Assembly (NCBI RefSeq): GCF_000403355.2
Contig: NZ_KE159646.1
Span: forward strand, 1,330,258-1,394,257
Reading direction: 5' to 3'
From: Adlercreutzia caecimuris B7
GTDB lineage: Bacteria > Actinomycetota > Coriobacteriia > Coriobacteriales > Eggerthellaceae
DNA length: 64,000 nucleotides
Positions 46 to 56,011 of this stretch are shown here, in pieces (within the stretch, counting starts at the first letter, position 1; each line of letters opens with the position of its first letter). Under the pieces are notes generated by a model that was not told where the DNA came from, searched no databases, and saw only the letters and a list, made by a program, of their open reading frames with translations. Both the position numbers and the translations under genes were made by a program.

Positions 46-301
46 AAGTCGCTCCTTCAAGCGGTCTGATAAAGCAGCAACGCAAGATGGTATCAAAGAT
101 GCAAGACAAATTGAAGAGAAATTTTGCACAAGGGCGTAAAAAACCAAAAAGCGGGTTTGGCTTTGAAATGACCTGCTTGTCAGGCCTGCGGTCGAGCCGC
201 GCAGCTCTCGGAGATCAACCGGAGCCGCCAGGTATTTGCGCTGCCTCAGAGCGCCACCGCCTTGTCGGCGAATGGGATGATAGCACAGGCCGCTACGGGA
301 T

Positions 302-333
302 GCAAGGGAGGCGGAGCCTGCAGCCTCCCTTGC
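302..333 (-). terminator. Inverted repeat downstream of the ABC operon
   Basis: GCAAGGGAGGC at 302-312 pairs perfectly with 323-333 across a 10-base loop. It lies 14 bases past the stop of the last gene of the ABC operon (347) on the minus strand. No U-run follows, so it could be a processing or Rho-assisted end rather than an intrinsic terminator. Nothing else recognisable lies in 46-301, the stretch in front of infA. Confidence 0.5.
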
Positions 334-346
334 GCGACATTATCCA

Positions 347-1015
347 TTATCGCTCAGCCGCAAACTTCAAGAAGATGCGCTCCGGACTGTTCGCGATAAG
401 CATGGCAAACTCATTCCCCTCGATAGGATCGCGATGCTGGCGATCATAGGTTTCAAGATAGGCTGGAGACCCCGATAAAAAGAAAGGGACATCCATTTCG
501 TACGTTGACCCCGGCTTGAGCGCAAACGCAGTATCGCCAGCCAGCTCGGGATAGGCGAGACCCAGGAGCTCCTCATCAAGTTGATAGTCTTTGCTCTTAT
601 CCGCGCCCACAATCGTATAGCGAGAAAGAGATACGCCCACTTCCGACGTTCCATCTTCTGCTGACGCGGTGCCCTCGTTGGCGATGACGAGCGTCACGAC
701 AAGCACGTCCGCCCCCGACGATTCCGTCATCTCCTCCCCCTTGATATCGGAAGACGATACCCCAGCTCCAATTAAATATTCCCTCGCCGTCATAATCCGA
801 GCCTTTTCAACGGCAAGCTTGTATCCAGGTGCGAGGTCGTAAGTCGAATCGAAGTAATTGACTCCCAAGTCCGCCCGCTCTCCCATTTCAAGCACTTTCG
901 ACGGCGCTTCAGGAACAAGGGCGTTCACATGATACACCGCGACAGCCCACAGCATAAGCAATGCAGTCAGAACTATTCCGCATATACCTAGCGCAACACG
1001 GCTCCGAACACTCAT
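347..1015 (-). CDS. Membrane-anchored extracytoplasmic protein, DUF5027-like
   Basis: A 222-residue protein with one N-terminal hydrophobic segment (about residues 8-28) and a beta-rich exported domain; no lipobox. The region after the anchor, with a GERADLG motif and a run toward a late PGSTYEMDVPFF segment, parallels the protein at 3388-4113 (GEWVDL motif), so the two look like distant paralogues that flank the transporter genes. This layout recalls DUF5027-type proteins of Eggerthella relatives, an assignment made from memory. ATG at 1015 overlaps the ATPase stop as ATGA, so it is translationally coupled as the last gene of the operon. Function unknown; a role linked to the substrate or immunity function of the transporter is inferred. 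Confidence 0.6.
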   Translation of the reverse strand: MSVRSRVALGICGIVLTALLMLWAVAVYHVNALVPEAPSKVLEMGERADLGVNYFDSTYDLAPGYKLAVEKARIMTAREYLIGAGVSSSDIKGEEMTESSGADVLVVTLVIANEGTASAEDGTSEVGVSLSRYTIVGADKSKDYQLDEELLGLAYPELAGDTAFALKPGSTYEMDVPFFLSGSPAYLETYDRQHRDPIEGNEFAMLIANSPERIFLKFAAER

Positions 1016-1671
1016 GAGAGACCTCTCCCCGCAAATATCTCATGACCGTCGATGTGCCCTTCAGCCAGGTAATACACCTCATCAGATAGCGATTCCATCA
1101 GCTCTCGGTCATGACATGCCCACAATACAGCAGCCCCTCGCTCACGCTCTTTCAATATGAGCCGTCGCAGCATGCGCACTCCATCCCTATCCAAAGCATT
1201 ACTCGGCTCGTCCAAAAGCAATACAGACGGCGACTCCAGAACAGCCGCAGCAAGGCCGAGCCGCTGCTTCATCCCCAGAGAGTATTTTCTAAAAGGACGC
1301 TTATCGTCCTTCCGCAATCCAACCTCTTCCAGAACCTTATCAATAGCCTCCCCACCCACCTTATCGCGAATAGAAGCGAGGAGGCACAAGTTCATGCGAC
1401 CCGTATAGGCGCTCAGGAACTGCGGGGATTCGATAAGAATCCCCATGCTCTCGGGAAACGCTCGATCGATGCCGATAGTCGCACCATCCACGACAACCGA
1501 TCCCTTGTCGGGGGTGATAAGACCCGCGATGAGACGCATGAGCATGGTCTTACCCGACCCGTTAGGTCCGGCAATTGCGGCGATAGCACCATTCGAAACG
1601 CTGAGCGACACATCGTCGAGAATCGTCACCCCTCGAATGTGTTTCGTCACATGCTTTACTTCTATACTCAT
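1012..1671 (-). CDS. ABC transporter ATP-binding protein
   Basis: A 219-residue ABC ATPase that powers the transporter formed by the two upstream permeases. Walker A GPNGSGKT is at about 35-42, the signature YSLGMKQRLG at about 130-139, Walker B LLLDEPSNALD at about 151-161 and the switch His in WACHDRE near 187. The start was set at MSIEVKH (1671) because family members begin there and because this ATG overlaps the permease stop as ATGA; the longer upstream reading is only permease sequence in another frame. The short size and paired small permeases fit drug, lantibiotic or peptide export/immunity ABC systems. Confidence 0.9.
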   Translation of the reverse strand: MSIEVKHVTKHIRGVTILDDVSLSVSNGAIAAIAGPNGSGKTMLMRLIAGLITPDKGSVVVDGATIGIDRAFPESMGILIESPQFLSAYTGRMNLCLLASIRDKVGGEAIDKVLEEVGLRKDDKRPFRKYSLGMKQRLGLAAAVLESPSVLLLDEPSNALDRDGVRMLRRLILKERERGAAVLWACHDRELMESLSDEVYYLAEGHIDGHEIFAGRGLS

Positions 1672-2528
1672 AGTGAATCCTCGCTTCCAAAACAACGCCT
1701 TCGATTGAATGCAATACCGCCAACAAGCATCGACGCAATTGCTACGACCCCGCATACCGCTATGGCCTCGGCAAGCAACCAGCCGTCCGCAACAAACGCA
1801 CCACAGCGTGCCGCCATAGAAAAGGCGCAAAACCCGATCGGCCCCACACCGAAAGCAGACGCGACCAGCAAACCGGCAGAGGCACCGACCCCCGATATCG
1901 TACCGAAAAGGAAGGACAGGCAAAGCTGAAACAATCCGAGGGATATGGCGACTACCACAACCGCACCCATGAAGGAGAGGGCATCATAGGGCGCTCCCCT
2001 CAGTTCCTGCCAGGGAAAATCAATAAGGTAGAGCATATCGGGCGAAACCGACCACGATGGCCCCGAGCCAGCAATCAGCGAAAACAGCAGGGCAACCAGC
2101 AGCGCCGTTGCGCAAAACAGCAGCACTGATCCTGCCACCCAAACGCATTTCGCCCACCACCAAGTCCAACGGCTACCGCAAGCAATGAGGACCTGCTGCC
2201 CGAAACCGCGCAAGCTTTCCCGAGGGTATCGTGCAAGTCCGACCACCAGCAGCAGGAAGAACACGAACCACCCGATGGGAGGCGCGAAGGCGCGATCATC
2301 ACCGCCCGTGAAAGGCACGCAACCCGCGAAGTAGCCGAGCAGATAATCGCCGAGCGTAAAGGCGACATCAAAGGTCATGCCGTCATCTGCACCGGCAAGC
2401 GCCATTCCGACCTCGAGACGCAGGGCAACGAGCATGAGGACGCAGCAAAAGGCGCATGCCGTGAGCCATATTCCCGTAGAGCGCAGCGTCGCAAGAACGT
2501 CCATGACAAGGCATCGCAAGCACCTCAC
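1668..2528 (-). CDS. ABC transporter permease
   Basis: A 286-residue hydrophobic protein with about six membrane spans, starting with a short cytoplasmic segment and a first span near residues 17-40, followed by a large extracytoplasmic loop (GADDGMTFD region). It belongs with the ABC-2 style permeases that partner stand-alone ATPases. Its start overlaps the stop of the upstream permease (ATGA) and its stop overlaps the ATPase start, so the three proteins are made together. Substrate cannot be read from the sequence. Confidence 0.75.
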   Translation of the reverse strand: MRCLRCLVMDVLATLRSTGIWLTACAFCCVLMLVALRLEVGMALAGADDGMTFDVAFTLGDYLLGYFAGCVPFTGGDDRAFAPPIGWFVFFLLLVVGLARYPRESLRGFGQQVLIACGSRWTWWWAKCVWVAGSVLLFCATALLVALLFSLIAGSGPSWSVSPDMLYLIDFPWQELRGAPYDALSFMGAVVVVAISLGLFQLCLSFLFGTISGVGASAGLLVASAFGVGPIGFCAFSMAARCGAFVADGWLLAEAIAVCGVVAIASMLVGGIAFNRRRCFGSEDSL

Positions 2529-3391
2529 TGCTCATCCCTCCGACATCCTACCCGCATCAACAACAGGCACGCACCTGCCAACAGCAGAACTTCGCCGGCA
2601 ATGATCCAGCCATTCTGCACGTACTGGGTGGTGTAAGCACGAAGGTTCTCGAATAGACTCAGCTGGAAGCCTCTGATGCCGCCGAGCGCAAGGAAAATGC
2701 GCTCGTTGAGGAACTGCACCGCATAAATTGCAACGTAAGGAATCGTGAGGACCGCCACCCGATTGACGGTGAGGCAACCCAGAAGCAGCACAAAAGCGGC
2801 CCACGCACCACAGAGAACGAAGTCGAGCATACAATAGGCCGCTACGTAGATTCCGGGAGCCTCGTAAAACCAAGAGGCCCACAGATTGTCGTGATAGATT
2901 CCCGTCGTAATGACGTCGAAGACCTCTGGCGCAATGGCCGGAGCGGTCGTTGCCACGAGAGCGAGGTTCACCAACTGCGGCACCACTACCACCGTGCCCC
3001 CAGCGGCGAAGGCCGCCACGGCCTTCGCCACAAGATACTGCCTGCGGCGCGTGCGTGTGTAAATCTGGCCCACGTACCCACTACGCCGCTCTGAAGCAAG
3101 AGACCATCCGAAAGGAGCCACGGCAAGCAGAGGAGCGGTCTGGTAAAAAATAGAGCACCAAACGGTGTCACCTCCTACCGACATCCAAGAGATAAAGCAG
3201 CTGTAGGACGCAGGCGAGATGAAAACATCGCCTTCGCCGGCCGCCATCTCGTCAAGGTACTGGAAAAACGAATCTCGCCCCATCACCTCTACGGCCTCGG
3301 CGCAGCAGAGAAACAGACCTATTCCCAGAGCAACGATGAAGTAAGGATTCGCAATAGCCTTGCGCAATTCCATCTTCAGCAATCGTCTCAC
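2525..3391 (-). CDS. ABC transporter permease
   Basis: A 288-residue integral membrane protein. It starts MRRLLKMELRKAIANPYFIVAL, the typical basic amphipathic start plus first span of ABC-2 permeases, then has a long extracytoplasmic loop (about 40-95) and five further hydrophobic stretches. It shares no obvious identity with the next permease, so the two probably form a heterodimer. It starts four bases inside the end of the upstream gene and ends four bases inside the next, all on the minus strand. Confidence 0.75.
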   Translation of the reverse strand: MRRLLKMELRKAIANPYFIVALGIGLFLCCAEAVEVMGRDSFFQYLDEMAAGEGDVFISPASYSCFISWMSVGGDTVWCSIFYQTAPLLAVAPFGWSLASERRSGYVGQIYTRTRRRQYLVAKAVAAFAAGGTVVVVPQLVNLALVATTAPAIAPEVFDVITTGIYHDNLWASWFYEAPGIYVAAYCMLDFVLCGAWAAFVLLLGCLTVNRVAVLTIPYVAIYAVQFLNERIFLALGGIRGFQLSLFENLRAYTTQYVQNGWIIAGEVLLLAGACLLLMRVGCRRDEQ

Positions 3392-4113
3392 AAATGACTC
3401 CTTTTATCTTCGCACTCAAGCGCCACCCTGATTCCGCAATTTGGGTCGCCGATCCGCAAGGCGGAGGGGACGCCATCGCCAGCCATGACAATACCCGAAT
3501 GAAACGTCCTTGTTTCCCCTGGTTCGAGCCGAAAGACATTGCCGTCGCCATCCTCCAGAGAACCATCTTCTATCATGCCATCGAAATAAATCTGGTCGAA
3601 TGATTCAATGCCTTCAAGTGAAGCAATAAACGAGTTGCAAAAGCCGTCTTTCCCAGATTTCGTTGAGCCAGGAAGTGGAGAGGCGTCGACGTTTTCAACG
3701 GTGTAGGTCAGCAAGCAAAGAGAATATCCATCCTGCTTCCATGTCGGGAGATAGCTGGGAAGCTGAATGCCATCAGCAGGAATTCCCGCTGCTCCAGGAG
3801 AATCAAACAGCGCCACTTCGTCTATACGCAAACGCAACGTGCCATCCCATTCGCCGAGAGGGCGATAATCTGGCTCAATACTGCTCCTGTCCGTGTTCCT
3901 TTTCGCCATATCCGCCATAACTCCTTGGTTATCAAGATCGACCCACTCCCCTATTGGGTAAACCTCTAGGGGGGAGGACTGCGCAGGAACAACTTCTCCG
4001 GTGTAAGAAATGACCGATGCCGCAAAACCGACGACAATGACCATGGCAGCAAAAGCCACCAAGCGGAGGCGTTCACCAAATCGGTTTCCCACGCGTCCAG
4101 CCCTTTTAATCAC
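3388..4113 (-). CDS. Membrane-anchored extracytoplasmic protein, paralogue of 347-1015
   Basis: A 241-residue protein with one transmembrane anchor (about residues 18-38) and an exported domain. It carries a GEWVDL motif just after the anchor and a late LEPGETRTF segment that match in position the GERADL and LKPGSTYEM segments of the protein at 347-1015. Such paralogues at both ends of one ABC operon suggest accessory subunits. The start overlaps the end of the secreted-protein gene by eight bases. DUF5027-like by appearance; no biochemical role can be assigned. Confidence 0.6.
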   Translation of the reverse strand: MIKRAGRVGNRFGERLRLVAFAAMVIVVGFAASVISYTGEVVPAQSSPLEVYPIGEWVDLDNQGVMADMAKRNTDRSSIEPDYRPLGEWDGTLRLRIDEVALFDSPGAAGIPADGIQLPSYLPTWKQDGYSLCLLTYTVENVDASPLPGSTKSGKDGFCNSFIASLEGIESFDQIYFDGMIEDGSLEDGDGNVFRLEPGETRTFHSGIVMAGDGVPSALRIGDPNCGIRVALECEDKRSHL

Positions 4114-4609
4114 CGTTAATCACCTTATAAGTACGTGAGCTGTCAGGGCTCCATTCGCCTTTCACGTCCCCACGTTGCGAATCAGCCCAACCCGTCAAAC
4201 GAACCATGTACCCTGCCGCTGCCTTATTAACCTTAATGCTGCAATCCGTGTTGATTTTCTTAAGCGTTGCTCTTTTCTTCGTGCCAGCAACAACATTGGA
4301 CCATTTACTTCCGGTCCACATATCGACATAAACACGGCACCGATCACATACCATTTTTGAGGCACGAACATAAACAGGAGTGCCGTTATCTTTCCTTCTG
4401 GGCTCATCACCAAGGCTTGTCGCTCCACTTTTTTTAAAGGTGAAATAGAAACTTGTATTTACGTTGTTGGCATAAGGCTGGATTGAGGAGGCAGATCCCG
4501 ACGACATGCCCCCGATATCTTCGCCATCCACATCCGCAAAAGCAAACCCTGACGGAACCATAACCGTCATTGCAAGAAGGCAGGCAGCTAGTTTGATCGG
4601 AACTTTCAT
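4106..4609 (-). CDS. Secreted small protein, first gene of the ABC operon
   Basis: A 167-residue protein with a clear Sec signal peptide: basic MKVPIK, a hydrophobic core LAACLLAMTVMV and a likely cleavage after AFA near residue 23. The mature part is about 140 residues, rich in Lys, Ser and Thr, with a CDRC pair and another single Cys. Its pattern (aromatic FYFTF stretch, K-D-N-G-T-P-V-Y core, WSPDSS near the end) loosely recalls DUF2712-type secreted proteins that Bacilli encode beside ABC transporters, but this is tentative. ATG at 4609 was chosen for its AAGGA site; the longer reading starts inside the hairpin region. Position suggests it is the cargo or a partner of the transporter. Confidence 0.65.
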   Translation of the reverse strand: MKVPIKLAACLLAMTVMVPSGFAFADVDGEDIGGMSSGSASSIQPYANNVNTSFYFTFKKSGATSLGDEPRRKDNGTPVYVRASKMVCDRCRVYVDMWTGSKWSNVVAGTKKRATLKKINTDCSIKVNKAAAGYMVRLTGWADSQRGDVKGEWSPDSSRTYKVINGD

Positions 4610-4664
4610 TTTCTTTTCCTTTCTCTTGGGATTCCGACAAGGAAACCATAAGAGAAAAGAGAGG

Positions 4665-4710
4665 CGCTGTATGTCATCAGGGCTTATGAAATGCCTGATG
4701 ACATACAGCG
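4665..4710 (-). terminator. Perfect 17-bp inverted repeat between regulator and ABC operon
   Basis: CGCTGTATGTCATCAGG at 4665-4681 is exactly complementary to 4694-4710, with a 12-base loop. It begins 18 bases past the stop of the tandem LuxR gene and lies about 55 bases ahead of the secreted-protein start. On the minus strand it is followed by a pyrimidine-rich tract (CCTCTCTTTTCTCTT), so an intrinsic terminator or attenuator is likely. A long perfect palindrome could equally be a protein-binding site. Confidence 0.7.
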
Positions 4711-4728
4711 GCGGCATCAGTTCCGCAT

Positions 4729-7341
4729 TTAATTGCTCGAATCGAGAACCTTTTTAACAGCATCGGCAAATTGAGCCTTCGAGTTCACGCCCAACCGCCG
4801 ATACAACGCTAGGCGTGCATTGTTAATCGCTCCCACCGATGAATATGACTCTGCGGAGATTTTCGTTGTCGACCACCCGCGAAGAATGCCCAGCCCCACC
4901 GATACCTCCGTGGAAGAAAACCCTTTGGCAACTAGATAAGCCTCCGCACGAGTCAACTCAGACGCATCGAAAAATTTGGAGATCCCCCACAGCTCGTATT
5001 CACTCTTTACCTCGCGATAGAGTTTCGCCTGTCCGTAAGCAATCACCACCAGTAGCACCATAGCCGCCGCGAACCCAATCATAGGGAAAAACACATCGCT
5101 CGGGTCAAGATAATCGAAAACCCAGCTGCTGTACTCCATAAGGTCATTTATAAAATTCGTCACAATGCGACCAAAAGCCACACCAATACCAAGCGCAGCC
5201 GTTATAAGCCCAAACCGCGACGGCAAAAGGGGAGCCGAAAGAACGACACGCCCTAATGCAACAAGTGCCAGAGCGGGCATTACGTAAGAGCCCCCTCCCA
5301 TCATAGTTGCAACTGCTCCAACAACGAGCAAACCCCCCGCTGAAAAACTCCCTATGCCCAGAAGACGGCCCACCGTCAACAGAGTGGCGAAAACCAGCCA
5401 AGCTGCAACAAGGAGCGATGCGGCCACCGGGCGACCAAGATCAGTCCAAGCCATCTGAATAAAAAAACCAACGAACAACGCCGCCATCATAAGCCAAACC
5501 GTCACTGCAAGAGAGCCAGCAAGTAGGTAGCAGCCGCTCCCGTCGCCCGAGCTCTTAACATCAATAATCCCTTTTACAACTATACTAAGCAAAAAAGAGC
5601 CGCAGAGCGCAACGAGAAACATCAGCCCTTCCGCCGCAGCACGGGTCACTCCCCCGCCCAATGCGACTTTTAAAAATACCAAGGTGCACCAGAGCGCTAC
5701 TGCAGACATATGCAGGATTCTCTCCGCTTTCCCCCGAGATGCAAGCTTTATGCCGCTCCATTCGACGAGTCCGAAAAGCATAAAGCCCGCTCCCAGGCCA
5801 AACAACAGAGGCGCCTCCGAACCCATAGCTGCATTGCTGGATACTTGCGTGGGAATGAGCACGTACGCTATTACTACCGACCCAAGGATACCCGTTATGA
5901 CTGATGCCGCACGAGAAGAGTCCAACGGCCTCGATACCGACGAGGAGGTATCCTTATGCGACTGCGCTTTCGCCAAGAAGCGCGTTTCTCTGCAGCTTCG
6001 GTAAACACTTGAAGCTTCTTCGCCGTTGGCCAAATCAAGCTTGCGATAAGCGCGCTGCAAGTAAGCACGCACTGTTGAAGACCCAATGCCCATCACGTCT
6101 GCCGATTGAGCAGACGTGGCACCTGCAAGCATAAGTGCTAGAGCCTGCTGCTCCCGATCGGTGAGAGCCTTCACTCTGCCCTCATCGTAGATTTCCGCTA
6201 GTTCGATTTCGGTGGCAAGCTCCGCGAAGGACGATTTATTCGCCGCCTCCTTCACAAATTCATCGCCTGACAGCTCTTTCGCTTCGTGAGGCTGGCGACC
6301 AAACCCACCCCACACGCCAACAACAACCAAGCCAACCGAAGCAACAACGCATAGAACGGAGAGGAAAAGCCAGCCACAGAAGGGCATTTTCTCGTAAACA
6401 AGCACCGATCTGCTGAAAAAATTCCACACGATGATTCCAAAAGCATAGGCCGCAAGCACCCGACACCCCTTGTCCCACTGCGGGAAAAGCGAGAACCTCT
6501 TTGTTTTTTCGCTGACAAGCGCATCTCTGCGCTCGCGCCCATTCCTCGGAAAATAAAGGCACCATGTCACCGCCAGCAAGAGGGCAATGATTCCCGAGAG
6601 CGCTGCAGCAGCTGAAGGGCCCAACTGAAACCAAAATACTTCACCGCTAAAGGCCCGAGGGACGGAGGGCAACCATGCTTCCTGATGAAATACGAAGAAT
6701 TCCAGAGGTTCTTTTGAGAAGCCCGCCACGCAAGAGAGCGCAATCGCTGTTGGATACATGGAAACGACCCTCGCAGAATCATCCTTCGCTGCCTGACAGC
6801 TGGCACCGAATTCTCGGACACCGACCCAACAAGGGGCAAAAGCGCAGAGAAACGCCGCGACGAGCAAGCCCATTTTCCCACATTCCTCCACGCACACCCG
6901 CCATGGTGTGTCAAAAATAAGGCTTATCGGAAAAACAAAAGGGCACGCCGTCCCCTCATGTGAGTGAAGGGGCATTGCCGCGTATATAACTTCAGGATCA
7001 CCCTCAAGCACAACAAAGAGACCGACCAGCTCAGCTACGCTGAGTGCAACAGCCAGCAACCACCCACTCGCGAAAAGAACTGCCATTGCAATTCTCGCCC
7101 AACAGCAAGTCGATAGAATCCCCTCGGCCCTATTGCGTAAGACGCTCATAGCAGCAGAATTCCAAACCGCACCAAACAAGCACCCGATCAATAGCCCGAA
7201 GGCCACCCAAGCGTAGAAACCCGTAAGAACGGGACCTCGGTAAGGCTCAGCCAGGAAAAAGGGCGTTGCGGTTAATGCCACAAACCAAATAATCCACGCC
7301 GTACCAATAACCGCCGCTCTCGCAGTGCTCCCACGCTTCAT
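4729..7341 (-). CDS. Tandem membrane LuxR-type regulator (two membrane/HTH units in one chain)
   Basis: About 870 residues. Unlike usual membrane LuxR regulators of this lineage (one multi-span half plus one C-terminal helix-turn-helix, about 450-500 residues), this protein repeats the layout. Spans cover roughly 15-350, a first LuxR-type HTH follows at about 390-455 (LTDREQQAL ... SSTVRAYLQRAYRKL), then new spans at about 480-775 and a second HTH at the end (LTRAEAYL ... AINNARLALYRRLGV). HTH1 keeps the classic T-x-R-E-x-x-x-L start; HTH2 is divergent (TRAEAYLVAKG). It sits directly upstream of the ABC operon on the same strand and probably controls it. The start is ambiguous: ATG at 7341 or TTG at 7362. 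Confidence 0.75.
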   Translation of the reverse strand: MKRGSTARAAVIGTAWIIWFVALTATPFFLAEPYRGPVLTGFYAWVAFGLLIGCLFGAVWNSAAMSVLRNRAEGILSTCCWARIAMAVLFASGWLLAVALSVAELVGLFVVLEGDPEVIYAAMPLHSHEGTACPFVFPISLIFDTPWRVCVEECGKMGLLVAAFLCAFAPCWVGVREFGASCQAAKDDSARVVSMYPTAIALSCVAGFSKEPLEFFVFHQEAWLPSVPRAFSGEVFWFQLGPSAAAALSGIIALLLAVTWCLYFPRNGRERRDALVSEKTKRFSLFPQWDKGCRVLAAYAFGIIVWNFFSRSVLVYEKMPFCGWLFLSVLCVVASVGLVVVGVWGGFGRQPHEAKELSGDEFVKEAANKSSFAELATEIELAEIYDEGRVKALTDREQQALALMLAGATSAQSADVMGIGSSTVRAYLQRAYRKLDLANGEEASSVYRSCRETRFLAKAQSHKDTSSSVSRPLDSSRAASVITGILGSVVIAYVLIPTQVSSNAAMGSEAPLLFGLGAGFMLFGLVEWSGIKLASRGKAERILHMSAVALWCTLVFLKVALGGGVTRAAAEGLMFLVALCGSFLLSIVVKGIIDVKSSGDGSGCYLLAGSLAVTVWLMMAALFVGFFIQMAWTDLGRPVAASLLVAAWLVFATLLTVGRLLGIGSFSAGGLLVVGAVATMMGGGSYVMPALALVALGRVVLSAPLLPSRFGLITAALGIGVAFGRIVTNFINDLMEYSSWVFDYLDPSDVFFPMIGFAAAMVLLVVIAYGQAKLYREVKSEYELWGISKFFDASELTRAEAYLVAKGFSSTEVSVGLGILRGWSTTKISAESYSSVGAINNARLALYRRLGVNSKAQFADAVKKVLDSSN

Positions 7342-7605
7342 GTATCGCCATACTCTCCACAACTTTACGCCTTACGTCTCCCCTCCATAAAAGATCAGTA
7401 TATCATTGGATGGTTTTACGCCGTGGTGCCCCAGGCGCTATTGATACCTATTGGGGCAGCTTGAAAGCCCAGCGATCTTACCCTTCCCCCGGCATTCCCG
7501 CCAACGTTGGCGAGCCAGCAGCAGGCCGCGAGCGCCACGCTGGCGCGATGGGGCGGCTCGGCAGGGGCCTCTTGGACAGGAGCGCGAGTGAACGGATCCC
7601 CGTCT

Positions 7606-8045
7606 CTAGGTGCGCGCGCCATTCGAAGCTGCGACCGAACGCTGCGCCCATTCTTCTTCGCCATCCACCTGCAAGAGCAAAGGCGCATTATCGTCCCGAT
7701 ATCTTTGGGGGCACTCGGCAAGAGCAGAGGTATCCTCGCCGGCAACATGCCACGCAATGCCGCGATCCACCTCGCGATAGCCGTGGGCGACGAAATTCCG
7801 GAAGCCCCCGATCTGTCGCCATGGGTAATCGAGGAAGGAGAACACGACGTCATCGGAAAGATGGATGGTATCTTCAGCGATGCGATAAACGGGGGGCATC
7901 ACCGCATCGTAGGCCAATTCCCCATCATCCGAGTCATCATTCACGAACTTCTCCCCATCAAGGGAGAAACGTTGGATACGGGTTGTAAGAGTCCTCGCAT
8001 CGTCTCGATAATGACGCTTATGAGATCGAGATCGCGCTCAGCTGC
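7606..8045 (-). pseudogene. Decayed HepT-like toxin (minimal nucleotidyltransferase partner)
   Basis: The reading at 7606-7944 contains the HepT (DUF86) core, including GFRNFVAHGYREVD with the R-x4-H nuclease motif, and an LSDD segment. Its natural N-terminus, ERDLDLISVIIE, lies further upstream (about 8000-8035) in a different frame, so at least one frameshift near 7990-8010 separates the halves. In intact systems HepT is a RNase neutralised by AMPylation from MNT. The neighbouring nucleotidyltransferase is also frameshifted, so the pair is probably dead. Confidence 0.7.
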
Positions 8046-8335
8046 TGTATAGAGCACCTCCTCATCACGCTGCATGCGCTTTCGGAAAGCCGGACGCATA
8101 AACTCAAGGGGGTTGGCCACCATCTCGACAGAACGGCCCAAGTACCCCCCAGCGATTCCTGAATATCGAGCAAGTCGGCATAATCGATTTCCAGATCGCA
8201 TTCCAGCCGTACGTCAACATCGCTTTGAGGCCCTGCCTCGCCGCGAGCGAACGAGCCGAACAGGTACACCGCGCGCACGTCGTAAGGCACCACAGCGCTC
8301 TTCAGGACTTCCGCTATGTGCTCGATCGTCAACAT
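8046..8335 (-). pseudogene. Decayed MNT-type nucleotidyltransferase antitoxin
   Basis: From ATG 8335 the frame gives MLTIEHIAEVL and the catalytic GSFARGEAGPQSDVD motif (G-S-x10-D-x-D), typical of minimal nucleotidyltransferases. It shifts frame at a run of six G (C6 at 8145-8150 on the plus strand): before it the protein reads DIQESLGG, after it the family C-terminus (YLGRSVEMVANPLEFMRP) continues in the next frame. One extra G would restore it. The normal stop before the HepT start is also missing. Confidence 0.75.
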
Positions 8336-8380
8336 GGGGAAAGTATGGCACGCGTGCACACAGCGAGGACAAACCGCCCC

Positions 8381-9658
8381 CTACTCCCCCAGGTACTCGC
8401 GCTGGCGTTGGCGGGCGAGCTGGAGGCCGCGGGCGACGAAGCCCTGGCCGAACACCTCGCGGATCTTCCAGGCATAGCGACTCTCGGGCTCGTCGAACTT
8501 GCGGCGCTCGAAGGCGAGGCAGTCGTGCACCGACTCGCCGAAGTCGGCGTAGAACTCCTCCATCTGGTCGATGAGCCTCTTCGCGGCCTTCACGACCGAC
8601 TGAGCGCTGCCGTCGGGCTGCACGATCTTCACCGTCTTCAGGTCGTAGTGCGCCGCGTTCTTGAAGTTCTGCACGGCCTGCACCTGGTCCTTCGGCGCCA
8701 AGCGCGGGCCTTCCGTGGAAGCGGCCCACACGAGGAACAGCTGGCTGAACAGCACGTCGCGCTCGTCGATGCCGGCGCGCACGAGCGGGTTCAAGTCCAC
8801 CATGCGCAGCTCGATATGGCTGATGCCCTCGCGCAGGCCCTCCAGGCTGTAGGGTCCGAAGTTCTTCAGGCGGATGGGGTAGTACAGCTCGGAGGGGTAG
8901 CGAATCATGCCCGTGTCGATGTAGGACTGGATGGAGTCGGCGTAGGCCGCCGCGCTCGTGTAGTCCAGAATGGGCGCGAAGAAGTTCCAGTAGCCGAGCT
9001 CGGAGCAGCGCACCGTGGCCAGGCCCTGGAACAGGTCGCCGCCGATCTTGCCCTTCTCCACGAAGGACGAGTCCATAACGGGGCTCGCGGCCATGACCGC
9101 GGTGAGGATCCAGCCCCAGGTGACGCAGTTCTCGGCCAGGCGCACGTACAGATCGTCCCGATAGGCGCCGAAGTCGTCGCCGCCGGTGAGGGCGAAGTCG
9201 GCCCGCAGCAGCTCCTCGCCGAGGGAGTAGTTGATGTGGATGCCCGAGAAGGCCATCTTGTAGCGGCCATAGCGGTCGGAGAGGTACTCGCGGTAGGCGG
9301 TCTTGCCGACATCGTCGCCGAAGTACTGGGCGATGGGGATGTCCTTCTCCCCCAGGATATAGGGCGGGTTGGAAAAGGGCCAGAGCAGCTCGCGCTCGGG
9401 CAGGTTCGCGATGGCCCGCTGCACGAGGCCGTTGTAGTGCTCGAGCGACTGCACCGCCTCGGCCGGCGTGGCGCACACCGGCGTGTTCACCTCCACTTGG
9501 TTCTCGGAGAAGTCGCGCACGATGTGCACATCGTCGGCGAAATCAGCCGGCGTGTGGGCCAGAAAGCCACCGCCGTCGATACGCAGGGATTCTTTCTCCA
9601 GCCCGAAGCCGCCTTCCAGAAGATGGGCGCGGACCGATTCATCGTGGGCATGCAGCAT
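8381..9658 (-). CDS. gshA: Glutamate-cysteine ligase
   Basis: A 425-residue enzyme joining glutamate and cysteine with ATP to give gamma-glutamylcysteine. The N-terminal GFGLEKESLRI motif and the ENQVEVNTP and FSGIHINYSLGEELL segments are typical of GshA-like ligases related to the N-terminal half of bifunctional GshAB. ATG at 9658 has a strong GGGAGG site five bases upstream; the longer reading lacks one. No glutathione synthetase is adjacent, so the product may be gamma-glutamylcysteine itself. The gene stands alone, with the decayed MNT/HepT pair downstream. Confidence 0.85.
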   Translation of the reverse strand: MLHAHDESVRAHLLEGGFGLEKESLRIDGGGFLAHTPADFADDVHIVRDFSENQVEVNTPVCATPAEAVQSLEHYNGLVQRAIANLPERELLWPFSNPPYILGEKDIPIAQYFGDDVGKTAYREYLSDRYGRYKMAFSGIHINYSLGEELLRADFALTGGDDFGAYRDDLYVRLAENCVTWGWILTAVMAASPVMDSSFVEKGKIGGDLFQGLATVRCSELGYWNFFAPILDYTSAAAYADSIQSYIDTGMIRYPSELYYPIRLKNFGPYSLEGLREGISHIELRMVDLNPLVRAGIDERDVLFSQLFLVWAASTEGPRLAPKDQVQAVQNFKNAAHYDLKTVKIVQPDGSAQSVVKAAKRLIDQMEEFYADFGESVHDCLAFERRKFDEPESRYAWKIREVFGQGFVARGLQLARQRQREYLGE

Positions 9659-9942: not shown

Positions 9943-10016
9943 AAAATCCCGTCGTCCAATTTCGCATTGACCGCGTCCCGCGCGAGCGGTAAACTATACG
10001 CTTGCGTGAAGGAGTC

Positions 10017-10092
10017 GGGCCTTTAGCTCAGTCGGTAGAGCAGGGGACTTTTAATCCCAAGGTCGCGGGTTCGATCCCCGCAGGGCCCACCA
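10017..10092 (+). tRNA. tRNA-Lys (anticodon TTT)
   Basis: A full cloverleaf can be drawn: acceptor GGGCCTT pairs with AGGGCCC, D-loop AGCTCAGTCGGTAGAGC, anticodon loop CTTTTAA with anticodon TTT, T-arm GCGGGTTCGATCCCCGC, and an encoded CCA end at 10090-10092. Confidence 0.97.
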
Positions 10093-10147
10093 CTTTTCTC
10101 AAGCTCGGCAACGTAGCCGCGCCCGCATCACGCATTCGATACGGCAC

Positions 10148-10221
10148 TGGGGTATCGTCCAACGGCAGGACTCTGGTTTTTGGTACCAGCTACCTAGGTT
10201 CGAATCCTAGTACCCCAGCCA
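10148..10221 (+). tRNA. tRNA-Gln (anticodon TTG)
   Basis: Acceptor TGGGGTA pairs with TACCCCA; the anticodon arm CTGGT-TTTTGGT-ACCAG gives anticodon TTG; T-arm CTAGGTTCGAATCCTAG; encoded CCA at 10219-10221. It lies 55 bases after tRNA-Lys, probably in the same transcript. Confidence 0.97.
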
Positions 10222-10293
10222 TTTCCTTTCCCCTCTCAGCAATGAATATATTTCAGAGTCGTGCGGGATGGGGATTCGAGCTGCATCCCCTCC

Positions 10294-11817
10294 CTACCGG
10301 GCGCCCTTCTCGGTTTTCGCGACGACGAGGAACAGGGCGAGCGCGCAAGCGCCGATGGCGGCCATGGCAAGATACAGGTTCGCGTACCCAATGAGCGGCA
10401 CCACTGCCCCCAGCAAGATGGGGCCCACGCCCACGCCCACGTCGAGCAGCATATAGAAGGTGGCATTGGCCACCGACAAGCGCGCATCTGACGTAACGCG
10501 CACGGCCATAGCCAGGCCGCACGACTGCACGGTGCCCACGCCGAAGCCGAGGAGCGCCGCTGCGCCGAGCACCATCCAGTCGTTGGACGCCAGCGCCAGC
10601 ACCACCATGCCCAAAACGAACGAGACGAAGGCCGGCACCATGACCGGATGCGGCCCCACGCGGTCGAAGGCGCGGCCGGTGAAGGGCCTCGTCGCGAACA
10701 TAGCCAGAGCGTACACGACGAAGAACACGCTGGCGGCGCGGGCCAGTCCGATCTCCGTCGCATAGGGCGTGAGGAACGTGAGCAGGCTGGAATAGCCGAA
10801 GAACAGCAGGCCGCACACCACCGAGATGGGCAGCACGCCGGCCTCCACGAAGCGCGCCAGCGGCGAGCCCTCCACCTTCGCGGCGACCACTTCTTCCAGA
10901 TGGGTAGAGGGAACCCGGCCGCAAGCCGGGCAGTCGGCATCGGCGTCGGCGCACACCGGGCACGGCGCGTCGTCCGCGGAAACGGCGGCGGCCGCGCAGG
11001 CGGCACGGGTATTATCGGCAACTGCGGCCGCGTCTTCGCGCGCCTGCTCCAAGGGGGCGTCGGCCACGGTACCGGCCACCGCATCGGAGGCCGACGCCAT
11101 CTCGGCCTCAGCTTCCTGCTCGTTCCCGCGCACCCGCGTCGACGGGGCTGGGCGCAGCAGCAGGGCCGCGGGAATGGACGCAGCTACCAGCACGCTCGCC
11201 ACGATGAACACCACCGGGTAGCCGAAGTTGTTCGCCAGGAAGATGCCCGCAAAGGGCCCGATGGCGCTGCCCAACGTGACGGACAGCATGAAGTACCCAA
11301 TGCCCTCGCCCTTGCGATCGGGCGGCACCACACTCGTGATGACCGTGGCTATGGTGGTGGAGCACACGCCGTAGGCGAACCCGTGCACGAGGCGCACGCC
11401 GATGAGCGTCCCTACCGGCTCGTTCAGCAGATAGAGGGCCGTCAGCCCCACCTCGGCGATGCAGCCGACCAGAAGCAGCGGCATACGCCCGAACCGCTCC
11501 ATGAGAGGCGCGGCAGTGAAGCGCGAGAACAGCGTGCCCACGATGAACGCGCTCGCGCAGAAGGCGGCTACGGCGGCCGGGGCCTGGTACACCGCAAGCG
11601 CATAGGCGGTCATGACCACCATGAGCATGAAATAGTTACCGGCGATGAAGAAGTTCAGCAGCGTGCCGGCCACGAAGTTGCGCGTCCAGAGGGGCTGGGG
11701 CGCGGGCTTGGCACGGGACGCCGGCGCAGTTGCGGGAACGGGGCGAACGGCGGCAGACGCCGCAGATTGGCGTGCAGGGGAAGCGGCCGGACGGGTCGCG
11801 GCAGCAGGGGCAGACAT
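10294..11817 (-). CDS. Major facilitator superfamily transporter with a Cys-rich central loop
   Basis: A 507-residue, 12-span MFS exporter-type protein. The first six spans cover about 46-222 and the last six about 325-500; the inter-span motif LMERFGRMPLLLVG near 105-118 is the MFS A-like motif. An Ala/Pro-rich tail of about 42 residues precedes span 1. The central cytoplasmic loop is unusually long (about 222-325) and acidic, and holds CPVC at 286-289 and CPAC at 296-299, which resembles a zinc-ribbon knuckle pair. ATG overlaps the UspA stop by one base (TAATG), so the two genes are co-translated. Substrate unknown. Confidence 0.8.
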   Translation of the reverse strand: MSAPAAATRPAASPARQSAASAAVRPVPATAPASRAKPAPQPLWTRNFVAGTLLNFFIAGNYFMLMVVMTAYALAVYQAPAAVAAFCASAFIVGTLFSRFTAAPLMERFGRMPLLLVGCIAEVGLTALYLLNEPVGTLIGVRLVHGFAYGVCSTTIATVITSVVPPDRKGEGIGYFMLSVTLGSAIGPFAGIFLANNFGYPVVFIVASVLVAASIPAALLLRPAPSTRVRGNEQEAEAEMASASDAVAGTVADAPLEQAREDAAAVADNTRAACAAAAVSADDAPCPVCADADADCPACGRVPSTHLEEVVAAKVEGSPLARFVEAGVLPISVVCGLLFFGYSSLLTFLTPYATEIGLARAASVFFVVYALAMFATRPFTGRAFDRVGPHPVMVPAFVSFVLGMVVLALASNDWMVLGAAALLGFGVGTVQSCGLAMAVRVTSDARLSVANATFYMLLDVGVGVGPILLGAVVPLIGYANLYLAMAAIGACALALFLVVAKTEKGAR

Positions 11818-12667: not shown

Positions 12668-14288
12668 ACGGCGTGACCTTGATGGGGGTGACGTCCCCTC
12701 GACCTCCTACCAGCCAGTTCCGGCCATTCCGGAGTCGACGGCGGCAGCATAGCGCACCTCGCCCGACGAGGAGGCCACGGATGCCCTGGGCGGCTCGTAT
12801 CCCGACCCGACGCGGGGAGGGCAGCCGGTCGCGGACAGGCCGCGCCGCTCCAGCGCGGCCGTCTCCCGGCCCTCGTCCCTGCGGCGCCTGAGGGGCGTGG
12901 CCGACCCCGCGCGGGTCCTGGGCGGCACGGCCCTGCCGGAGGCCCGCCTGCTGCGCAGCCGGGCCATGTGCGAGGCGCCCGGCCGCGACCACGCGCACGG
13001 CACCGACGCCATCCTGGACTTGTACAGGTGCTGGTTCTCCGACTCCATGGTGCCGAGCGAGGGGCCGTCCACCGCGATCAGGTCGGCGTTTCTGCGCAGG
13101 TAGGCGAGCACCCGCGGCGCGCCCTTGCGGGCGAGCCCCATGTCTATGCACGCCTCCAACAGCGCCGCGGCGGCCTCCTTCCCGCCGTCGTTGACGACCT
13201 CCACGAGCCGCCGCCCCATGGCCGCGTCGTCGAAGCAGGACAGCAGCGCGCGGTTGACGTGGAACGGGTCGAGGTGGCCGACGACCTCCACGCGCAGCGG
13301 GAAGTAGGCGCCGCCCCGCTTGCACCAGCCCTCCCCGTCGGTGCCCAGGTGCACGCGCTCCAGCGCGGACAGGTCGAACTCGGAGCCGATGGCGGCCACG
13401 GCCTCCGGCCAGAACTCCCCCGGCGCGCACGCGCACCCGTGGCGCACGCAGCGCTCGCGGGCCGCCTTGCGCCCGCGCACCACCTTGCCCGAGTAGGCCG
13501 CCATCGCCTTGATCTCCACCTTGGACGGCTCGCCGGGGGCCGTGCCCTGGAGCGCCACCCATGTGCCGTCGGCTTCGACGCACACCTGCGCAGCCGCGGT
13601 CCTGCCGCCCGGCTTTATCCCCAGGTCGAACAGGTCGCGGGCCGCGCGGGCGTCCTCCTCGGCGCAGCGCTCGCCGGCCGCGTGCACGGCGGCCATCACC
13701 GTCTTGGCGCTCACGCGCGAGCCCCCGGCCCGGGCGAGCAGCCCGGCCGCGGCGGCGTAGGACACCTCGGCGCCCGCCTCCACGAGGAGCTCCTCGGCGG
13801 CCGGCGACACCCTGGCGCCCCAGGGAAGGCCCAGCTCGTCGGCCAGCGGGACGCAGGCGCCGCCGCCCCTTGCGCGCAGCCTCCGCCAGCGGAACGAGAC
13901 GTCGCCGACGACGGTGGCCAGCGAGCGCTCCCGCACGTCGTGGACGCTCAGGCCGGAGGGGAGCTCGGCGCACAGCGCCGCGTCCAGGCGCTCCAGAGCC
14001 CGGCCCATGGCCCGGGCCATGATCGCGTGGCCCTCGGTCAGGGCGCTGCGCTCGAACGAGGCGAACGTCAGGCCGCCGGACATGAGCATGCCGGTGAAGA
14101 TGTCGGCCATGGCGGCCTCCGCGGCCGCGGATGCTGTAGAATTGCCCATCGGGGATTCCTCTCTTTCTCGATTCTTGGTCGATAAGAGATTAGGGGAATC
14201 CTCCTCGCTTTGCTCCGGCTCATCGGCCGGCCTCACGGCCGCCCTCGTCGCCGGAGTCGCTATGCATCCCCAAAAAGGTTACGCCGTG
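12668..14288 (-). mobile_element. ISLre2-like insertion sequence, intact
   Basis: About 1.62 kb. The left end ACGGCGTGACCTTGATGGGG and the complement of the right end ACGGCGTAACCTTTTTGGGG form imperfect terminal inverted repeats. CTCCGCGATG occurs immediately outside both ends (12658-12667 and 14289-14298), a target duplication of 9-10 bp as expected for ISLre2 elements. One full-length transposase fills it. The preserved direct repeats indicate a fairly recent insertion into the gap between the toxin locus and the HD-domain gene. Confidence 0.85.
12707..14149 (-). CDS. ISLre2-type transposase
   Basis: A 480-residue transposase of the UPF0236/ISLre2 type. Recognisable segments are VHLGTDGEGW, VVGHLDPFHVNRALLS and MESENQHLYKSRM, spaced as in that family and likely holding its acidic catalytic residues. 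ATG 14149 is preceded by GAGAGGAA; the longer reading extends toward the IS end. No frameshift is seen. GC content is higher than its neighbours. Confidence 0.85.
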   Translation of the reverse strand: MGNSTASAAAEAAMADIFTGMLMSGGLTFASFERSALTEGHAIMARAMGRALERLDAALCAELPSGLSVHDVRERSLATVVGDVSFRWRRLRARGGGACVPLADELGLPWGARVSPAAEELLVEAGAEVSYAAAAGLLARAGGSRVSAKTVMAAVHAAGERCAEEDARAARDLFDLGIKPGGRTAAAQVCVEADGTWVALQGTAPGEPSKVEIKAMAAYSGKVVRGRKAARERCVRHGCACAPGEFWPEAVAAIGSEFDLSALERVHLGTDGEGWCKRGGAYFPLRVEVVGHLDPFHVNRALLSCFDDAAMGRRLVEVVNDGGKEAAAALLEACIDMGLARKGAPRVLAYLRRNADLIAVDGPSLGTMESENQHLYKSRMASVPCAWSRPGASHMARLRSRRASGRAVPPRTRAGSATPLRRRRDEGRETAALERRGLSATGCPPRVGSGYEPPRASVASSSGEVRYAAAVDSGMAGTGW

Positions 14289-54558: not shown

Positions 54559-54588
54559 GCGACCGGGCCCCTCAGCGGGCCCGGTCGC
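54559..54588. terminator. Bidirectional terminator between flavin reductase and luxR
   Basis: GCGACCGGGCCC (54559-54570) pairs with GGGCCCGGTCGC (54577-54588), followed by CTTTG on the plus strand. It overlaps the end of the luxR gene. Confidence 0.8.
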
Positions 54589-56011
54589 CTTTGTCCACAG
54601 CCTCGTTCACCATGTCGATGAGCTCTTGACGCGAGTGCACGCCGAGCTTTCGATAGAGGCTCTTTGCGTAGGTTTGGATGCTGTTCACCGACAGGAACAA
54701 GCGCTCGGCAATCTTTTTCTGGGTGTTACCGCGGTAGAGCAGCCCAAGCACTTCGCCCTCCCGCTCGCTCAAGCCATGTTCGTCGGCCAGAGCAGCGATA
54801 ACCGCCGACACATCGATGGCACCCGCAAGGTACCCAGAGCGCGCGGGATCCGCACCGTCAAGGCGCAGTCGCACGAACCAGAGCATCCCCAGCGTCATGA
54901 CAAAGGCCGTAACGAGCATGACGGCATTGACGACTGAATCCATCTGCGCGGAAGAGAGCCCGACAAGTCCGATGGCGTGAATGGCACAATCGACGGCAAC
55001 GGTGAGCATGGGCGCGACAACCGCGGACTGCCACCAAGGAAGACCCCGCGCACGCATCCCCTCTTGAACCGCCACCCACAGCAGCATGATGGCCATGGGA
55101 CGGCTCGGCAGGATCAAAGCTCGGCATAGGACGGCCAGCGGCGCATACAGCAGGGCGGTGCAATAGAGGCAGGCGATGCAGAGGATGAAGAAACCGAGCC
55201 ACGGATAGCCCGCGCGACCCTGGCGCCATGCAGCGAATGCGCAGAGGCAAAAAGCCGGGTAGAGTCCAAGGGCGACGGCGCAATGGATCCACCCATCGGA
55301 AAACCACGTCTCACCCCGAGCCACCGACGAGAGGCTCATGAACGCCCCGCTTCCCAGCAGGTAGCACAGTAGAATGGCAGCCGCGAGCGCAGCAGCACGA
55401 CCCGAAAGCGACGACGCAGGGCGTGGCGGAGACGGCGGCTCGGAATCACTGCGGCCGAGGCGGCCGAGAATCACCAGGAAGACACCGCCCAAGGCGGGCA
55501 TGAGCGGGTTGGAGATCTCCCCGGTGGGCAGAGGATCCGTAAGCGCCACGATAGCCTCGCCGATCAGGAACGACAGGAACAGGGAGAGGGCGAGCACGAC
55601 GGCGTTGTCCCGAGAAGACAAACGCCGCGATGCCCCCGCAAGGGCAACGGCGGCCACCACGCCATAGATCGCCATGATGGCGGGATAGGCGACCATCAGC
55701 CAAAGCGGTATCGCTCCGATATGAGCGCTGACAATGAGCGCGGCGCCGCAGGCAAGCAGCGCGGCGCCGGACCCAACGACAGCCATCGTGCTTCCGGCCA
55801 CCCGCTCGGCCAGACCGTCACGAAGCGCTACGAGAACCCCGCCTGAAAGGGCCATCGTAACGAGCGTGACAACGCTGCTGGCGAATACAGGGGCCGCATC
55901 GTAGGAGGTATAGGATTCGGGCACTACGTTCGACGGGTAGGGAAACAGCACGAACAACGCCCAAAAGCAGGCGTAGGCCAACGCGAGCAGCAGGATGCGC
56001 AGCTTGTTCAA
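54572..56011 (-). CDS. Membrane LuxR-family regulator
   Basis: About 479 residues: roughly 12 spans (about 10-385) and a C-terminal LuxR HTH (LSEREGEVLGLLYRGNTQKKIAERLFLSVNSIQTYAKSLYRKLGV). The start at TTG 56011 follows GAGGGG with five-base spacing; ATG 56068 has no ribosome site. Convergent with the flavin reductase, whose promoter has two matching palindromes. Membrane signal sensing with direct DNA binding is the family mode. Confidence 0.87.
   Translation of the reverse strand: MNKLRILLLALAYACFWALFVLFPYPSNVVPESYTSYDAAPVFASSVVTLVTMALSGGVLVALRDGLAERVAGSTMAVVGSGAALLACGAALIVSAHIGAIPLWLMVAYPAIMAIYGVVAAVALAGASRRLSSRDNAVVLALSLFLSFLIGEAIVALTDPLPTGEISNPLMPALGGVFLVILGRLGRSDSEPPSPPRPASSLSGRAAALAAAILLCYLLGSGAFMSLSSVARGETWFSDGWIHCAVALGLYPAFCLCAFAAWRQGRAGYPWLGFFILCIACLYCTALLYAPLAVLCRALILPSRPMAIMLLWVAVQEGMRARGLPWWQSAVVAPMLTVAVDCAIHAIGLVGLSSAQMDSVVNAVMLVTAFVMTLGMLWFVRLRLDGADPARSGYLAGAIDVSAVIAALADEHGLSEREGEVLGLLYRGNTQKKIAERLFLSVNSIQTYAKSLYRKLGVHSRQELIDMVNEAVDKGDRAR

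Follow-up and report, generated by a model that had tools for sequence, protein, structure and literature searches.

LuxR-type proteins act as homodimers on symmetric sites. A comparable arrangement, in which a membrane sensor is encoded beside the exporter that it switches on, is that of the BceRS-BceAB-type modules. In the Coriobacteriia a family of membrane-bound regulators, the 10-12-TM LuxR family, has been described, with 83 TM LuxRs in E. lenta DSM 2243 that have a single C-terminal HTH, and according to the main text of that report DadR, HcdR and CadR activate the neighbouring promoter in a substrate-dependent manner (Dong et al. 2022, PMC9734109). The protein studied here resembles these three, as they are presented in that text, in its multi-pass membrane region, its C-terminal LuxR/GerE HTH, its origin in the same class and the placement of its gene beside a presumed target. 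However, it differs from the 10-12-TM LuxRs of that account in having two HTHs, of which the first lies between unrelated membrane regions of about 8 and 10 TM helices, and its neighbour is an ABC exporter cassette, whereas that of the DadR/HcdR/CadR type is a metabolic enzyme (PMC9734109). It thus falls outside the definition of that family, which asks for one C-terminal HTH preceded by 10-12 TM helices, and the main text of that paper contains no two-HTH form. Nor did we find a tandem or two-HTH LuxR described in the literature, subscription papers and preprints aside; in our judgement, the 10-12-TM family is already known and the two-HTH variant is newly described here.

The window, that is the whole 64,000-nucleotide stretch of Adlercreutzia caecimuris B7 DNA that was analysed, contains on its minus strand an ORF that is open for 877 codons from a TTG (4729-7362). 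On the strength of the ORF list and the homologues we place the start at the ATG at 7341, also the start of the copy in a same-genus species, which gives a product of 870 residues (4729..7341, minus strand); the TTG at 7362 is the alternative. This single intact frame agrees with the preliminary description, which had seen one chain of about 870 residues with a classic HTH in the middle and a divergent one at the end, and had named a frameshift or an overlooked stop around residue 465 as what might undo that view. A protein search of 140 genomes of the family recovered from the same-genus species a full-length, 55%-identical copy of 878 aa (L047:10185-12821), which is syntenic, with the glutamate-cysteine ligase side upstream and the secreted protein downstream, as well as distant relatives with frames of 800-1000 codons. 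Given this copy in a second species and the dozens of long frames elsewhere, the two-HTH frame is no sequencing accident, and a missed stop, frameshift or assembly error is ruled out. Between the two species HTH1 (77% identity) and HTH2 (71%) are the best conserved parts of the chain, as against 51-54% for the membrane regions and 32% for the linker. The two-HTH chain is unusual in its own 2.96-Mb genome, since nearly all of the 48 GerE matches found there lie in single frames of about 450-600 codons. The earlier remark that single-unit proteins are the norm thus holds, as does its example at 54572-56011, which had been put at about 480 residues and has 498 aa from the longest start with one C-terminal GerE domain. 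A scan of the genome contigs with P0001 alone found no relative. A phage or plasmid origin of the regulator was rejected, as tblastn against phage and plasmid sequences gave no match for it. Gene calls in the relatives are our own ORF choices, and the family counts given below, which come from sampled genomes, are lower bounds.

The chain consists, in this order, of a first membrane region of about 8 TM helices (6301..7329), HTH1 (5998..6177), a second membrane region of about 10 TM helices (4966..5919) and HTH2 (4747..4956), all on the minus strand. The helix counts are those of an AlphaFold2 model built from a 32-sequence alignment, in which about 8 and 10 long helices make up the two membrane regions, and for the first region also reflect the hydropathy of relatives. 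HTH1 (residues ~396-455) is a classic LuxR/GerE DNA-binding domain, which Pfam GerE matches at residues 399-450 with 45.2 bits against a cut-off of 23.5. HTH2 (residues ~803-872) is a divergent version with the signature yLxsrGLsetQ...GTVNsARxxaYRxLGVHS, delineated with our own profile (A2) and an alignment of 51 sequences; in the window protein the C-terminus draws no GerE call from Pfam and a weak LuxR-type match from NCBIfam, at residues 813-865 (LIC13292, 5e-4). Despite the missed Pfam detection, HTH2 is a real GerE domain, because both HTHs are predicted with pLDDT >93 and each with the GerE helices, and because Pfam GerE matches twice in relatives that have tandem HTHs. The structures of NarL, DosR, LiaR and GerE match the HTH models. 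The protein is therefore a member of the LuxR/GerE superfamily, as defined by a GerE-type HTH, through HTH1 by Pfam and through HTH2 by profile and model. The charges of the loops suggest that both HTHs lie in the cytoplasm; their mutual orientation is not fixed by the model (pTM 0.52). Profile-profile comparison with hhalign shows HTH1 and HTH2 to be homologous (probability 98.9%), whereas homology between the two membrane regions was not detected (0.1%). Thus, of the duplicated unit in the preliminary description, the placement of the GerE HTHs at mid-chain and C-terminus and the duplication of the HTH stand, whereas that of the membrane regions does not, and a tandem duplication of the whole LuxR unit was rejected.

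Domain calls in relatives were made with family-specific HTH1 and HTH2 profiles. The HTH2-only profile drew high-scoring matches in four families of the order Coriobacteriales (f1, f2, f3 and f5), and in 397 genomes of the phylum nothing above 56 bits was seen outside this order. Among the loci read from the order, HTH1 lies upstream of HTH2 in 68 of the 71 ORFs with HTH2, and L190, among the three exceptions, reaches the end of its contig. Together with the same-genus copy, this provides the recurrence of the fusion in related genomes, with both HTHs conserved, in which the preliminary description had looked for support. The gap between the two HTHs ranges from 1 to 508 residues, and 15 proteins have them in direct tandem. 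The architectures include TM-HTH1-TM-HTH2 (about 460-980 aa), HTH1-TM-HTH2 (L046) and tandem HTH1-HTH2 followed by one TM helix, in some cases with PASTA domains. Given this range of gaps and the direct tandems, the HTH pair is, to judge from the relatives, the conserved unit, and the membrane regions are interchangeable and mutually unrelated. In a tree of HTH domains, in which about 60 residues leave the deep branches soft, the 51 HTH2 domains all group into a single clade (support 0.95), and 30 sampled single-HTH LuxRs of the own genome fall in a separate one (0.98). Furthermore, HTH1 and HTH2 are no more alike within a molecule (25.5% identity) than between proteins (25.7%), which together with the single HTH2 clade indicates that the pairing is ancient. 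The window protein belongs to this family by having HTH1 and HTH2 in one chain, an HTH2 inside the HTH2 clade and the motif described below beside an operon. As read from these loci, the two-HTH membrane design recurs through the order, usually beside a transporter operon and with a common DNA motif. In three of the relatives (L141:8647-10008, L143:8792-10324 and L173:3782-5104) the tandem HTH1-HTH2 is joined through one TM helix to extracellular PASTA domains (Pfam 69-81 bits), and these look like one-component cell-wall sensors that directly carry the paired HTHs. Before another paired-HTH regulator (L158, 5' of 5939-8881) we noted a near-perfect 25-bp inverted repeat, which differs from the operator motif.

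Downstream of the regulator lies a set of minus-strand genes for an ABC exporter. It begins with a secreted DUF2712-like protein (SEC; 4106..4609, likely start ATG 4609), which has a signal-peptide-like N-terminus and whose homologues are the first gene in 8 loci, and continues with a membrane-anchored accessory protein (ADP1; 3388..4113), conserved at D1/D2 in more than 20 loci, and a permease (PERM1; 2525..3391), conserved downstream and covered by profile A4. A second permease (PERM2; 1668..2528), the ABC ATPase (1012..1671) and a second membrane-anchored accessory protein with weak DUF5028 similarity (ADP2; 347..1015) complete it, PERM2 and ADP2 being recognized by domain search and conserved neighbourhood. 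The closest named model for the ATPase is TIGR03740 (lantibiotic protection), and the cassette is like the LanFEG-type transporters of this class in that nearest model and in its two ABC-2-type permeases. However, the ATPase scores 156.5 bits, below the curated cut-off of 309.75, the cassette has the secreted DUF2712-like and anchored accessory proteins in addition, and the permeases could be assigned to no named family. SEC itself has no match to Pfam DUF2712 (PF10916), its relatives reach 15-20 bits, below the cut-off of 22, and we found no description of DUF2712 in the literature, subscription papers and preprints aside.

The regulator is followed on its own strand by the cassette in more than 20 loci drawn from several families, and this genetic coupling upholds the early view of the regulator as sitting just upstream of an ABC operon. 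For the same-genus species, the cassette is picked up again at the beginning of a second contig (L241), which fits a contig break. PERM1 gave 64 matches when searched against 400 genomes of the class, 46 of which had at least one; in a set of 20 further loci picked by permease, 5 have a two-HTH regulator beside the cassette and about 13 do not. Since cassettes without the regulator exist, two of them among the permease-picked loci of the own genome, the regulator is a frequent but not an obligatory partner. Those two SEC-permease-ABC cassettes (L222:151-4637 and L223:7036-11749, on C1 near 1.86 Mb and 0.53 Mb) have neither an adjacent LuxR gene nor the upstream motif. Rfam gave no match over window positions 300-8500, and hence no known leader RNA is present there. 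The segment 347-7362 has a GC content of about 54% and a GC3 of about 0.5-0.66, as compared with about 65% and 0.8-0.9 in its surroundings. From its sequence, the regulator with its cassette is probably an acquired island beside gshA, common to this and one same-genus species.

A conserved motif, TCATA-N5-TGAYTACAGACA, is situated in the gap that separates the regulator from the cassette, and its -35 box stands 17 bp before a -10 element of the form xAnnnT. An EM search (width 22) over 26 regulator-coupled loci converged on TCATAnnnnnTGAYTACAGACA with a log-likelihood ratio of 203, as against 67-80 in 12 dinucleotide-shuffled sets. When 18 non-redundant loci were anchored on the motif, a hexamer 17 bp further on had A at its second position in 16 and T at its sixth in 17 of them; this A/T block at a fixed distance marks the -10 element and hence CAGACA as the -35 box. 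The upstream part of the motif is centred near -43. The lux box at class II promoters lies at the same place. In the window, the predicted operator with its -35 box reads TCATA-AGCCC-TGATGACATACA (4668..4689, minus strand; leave-one-out score 25.9, the only match in the genome), and the predicted -10 hexamer, TATGGT (4645..4650, minus strand), follows 17 bp after CATACA. A perfect 17-bp inverted repeat with a 12-bp centre (4665..4710) surrounds the operator, and the same-genus copy retains 9 bp of it; the repeat could serve two molecules, be two sites or form a terminator-like hairpin. It was rejected as the conserved element, being present in few loci while the right-hand motif is general, and the symmetric 33-bp pattern TGTCATCAG-N15-CTGATGACA had no match, its spacer being one base too long.

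Given that the motif was found post hoc in DNA chosen by homology, we checked it by leave-one-out scoring, a control of regulator-less cassettes, gene-order variants and a collection-wide scan. A leave-one-out score of at least 13 (top 29.8) was reached in 18 of the 26 coupled loci, the other 8 having no convincing site, whereas none of 13 regulator-less cassettes carries the motif (maximum score 4.4). In 2.75 Mb of loci, both strands, 78 matches scored at least 14, many of them the same site in overlapping loci, as against 7 in 1.81 Mb of shuffled sequence. At up to one mismatch the motif occurs once in the own genome and once in that of the sister species. Beyond the training set, the motif is found before ABC operons arranged in other gene orders, in most cases again accompanied by xAnnnT at the correct spacing: it stands between the regulator and a divergent operon (L191), ahead of a convergent one (L140), ahead of an ABC pair between two regulators (L167) and before a tandem-HTH gene itself (L145). 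A strict pattern run over 84,980 species genomes hit 21 places; all four in the Coriobacteriia, in Adlercreutzia sp. ZJ176, Ellagibacter isourolithinifaciens, Olsenella phocaeensis and one uncultured Coriobacteriales genome, lie beside an HTH2 gene, and the last of these is independent of the building of the motif. The other 17 are scattered and have no HTH2 gene. At L167:35-9602 an ABC exporter pair in the opposite orientation is enclosed by two paired-HTH regulators, and copies of the motif occur before the exporter genes and near the start of one regulator.

Since the motif tracks the regulator and not the cassette, it is most likely the regulator's own site. That it would instead be a mere promoter class, or the site of another factor, we consider quite improbable: it does contain a sigma70-like -35/-10 pair, but a generic promoter is hard to reconcile with its absence from the 13 cassettes without regulator, its single occurrence in 2.96 Mb and the way it follows the regulator into other gene orders. 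Its half-sites, TCATA and TGAYTA, are dissimilar and start 10 bp apart, and to such an asymmetric site, so unlike the symmetric ones of LuxR homodimers, two different HTHs in one chain would be the natural counterpart. The reading that we hold to be probable is that the protein is a one-component membrane activator which uses both HTHs on one asymmetric operator to switch on the exporter operon. A chain of about 18 TM helices (8 + 10) would expose HTH1 between its membrane regions and HTH2 at its C-terminal end, with both domains facing the cytoplasm. Some membrane signal, which may be an antimicrobial peptide or reflect what state the adjacent exporter is in, would let the two HTHs jointly occupy TCATA-N5-TGAYTA; this predicted site has its centre near -43 and overlaps the -35 box of a sigma70-type promoter. 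The bound regulator would recruit RNA polymerase by class II activation, and this would switch on the SEC-ADP1-PERM1-PERM2-ABC-ADP2 operon and with it the export of a putative cargo. Quite possibly, although here we are more tentative, the protein would be a single-chain pseudo-heterodimer, in which two different linked HTHs read dissimilar half-sites about one helical turn apart within one asymmetric class II operator, the sensor being placed between or attached to the pair as a membrane region or, in relatives, as a C-terminal TM and PASTA part; such proteins would be the first LuxR/GerE regulators of this kind, and order-wide in the Coriobacteriales.

Activation rather than repression is suggested by the position of the site over the -35 box together with the weak -10 hexamers (xAnnnT). 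A regulator that represses the operon until a signal arrives would likewise overlap the -35 box with its site, yet this is a rather unlikely reading, as weak -10 hexamers are those of activator-dependent promoters and the characterised 10-12-TM LuxRs, DadR, HcdR and CadR in the main text of PMC9734109, are activators. The preliminary description had proposed that one chain could bind two sites or two signals. On such a reading HTH1 would answer the first sensor and HTH2 the second, with integration of inputs or DNA looping. The mutually unrelated membrane regions would suit this, as would the operators of the window and the same-genus species with their inverted second copy (window 4686-4707). 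However, a single match to the motif turns up in the genome when one mismatch is allowed, most coupled loci have a single composite site, and in the 15 relatives with tandem HTHs the pairing is kept with no membrane region between them, which speaks for the HTHs acting together on a single site and against two independent ones; the reading thus appears unlikely, although two different membrane sensors in the chain would be conceivable. We also regard it as doubtful that HTH2 is a degenerate dimerisation or regulatory domain that does not bind DNA, leaving HTH1 to bind alone as a homodimer like an ordinary LuxR. Helix 4 of NarL/GerE domains mediates dimers, and HTH2 of the window protein lies below Pfam detection, both of which would fit such a role, but the conservation of HTH2 comes close to that of HTH1 (71 vs 77%), its recognition helix follows a strong consensus across 51 proteins, both domains of the tandem relatives score as Pfam GerE, and the asymmetry of the predicted operator is not that of a homodimer site.

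With NarL/LuxR/GerE regulators and the quorum-sensing LuxR, the window regulator shares the GerE fold and a predicted operator near -43 over the -35 box, as in the lux box, but it differs from NarL and the quorum-sensing LuxR, which form homodimers of single-HTH chains on symmetric sites and have soluble receiver or ligand domains. BceRS-BceAB has a histidine kinase and a response regulator where a one-component LuxR-type protein is found here, and its permease architecture is different. Two different HTHs in one chain, paired with an asymmetric site at the lux-box position, would break the textbook rule of homodimers on symmetric sites, and the doubling points to a previously undescribed mode of DNA reading for the LuxR family. 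The operator sequence, its half-sites and the promoter are predicted to the base, and the regulator provides a functional lead to an exporter cassette of gut Coriobacteriales that had not been described, with Adlercreutzia, Ellagibacter and Olsenella as named examples.

Several other features of the window were noted in passing. On the minus strand at 7416-8359 a nucleotidyltransferase (MNT) frame precedes a HepT-like stretch that lies in other frames, apparently the broken remnant of an MNT/HEPN toxin-antitoxin pair. The ORF at 10002-10394 is spurious, as its translation resembles tRNA genes, and two tRNAs likely lie there. A transposase-like protein of the UPF0236 family is encoded at 12707-14236 amid otherwise housekeeping genes.
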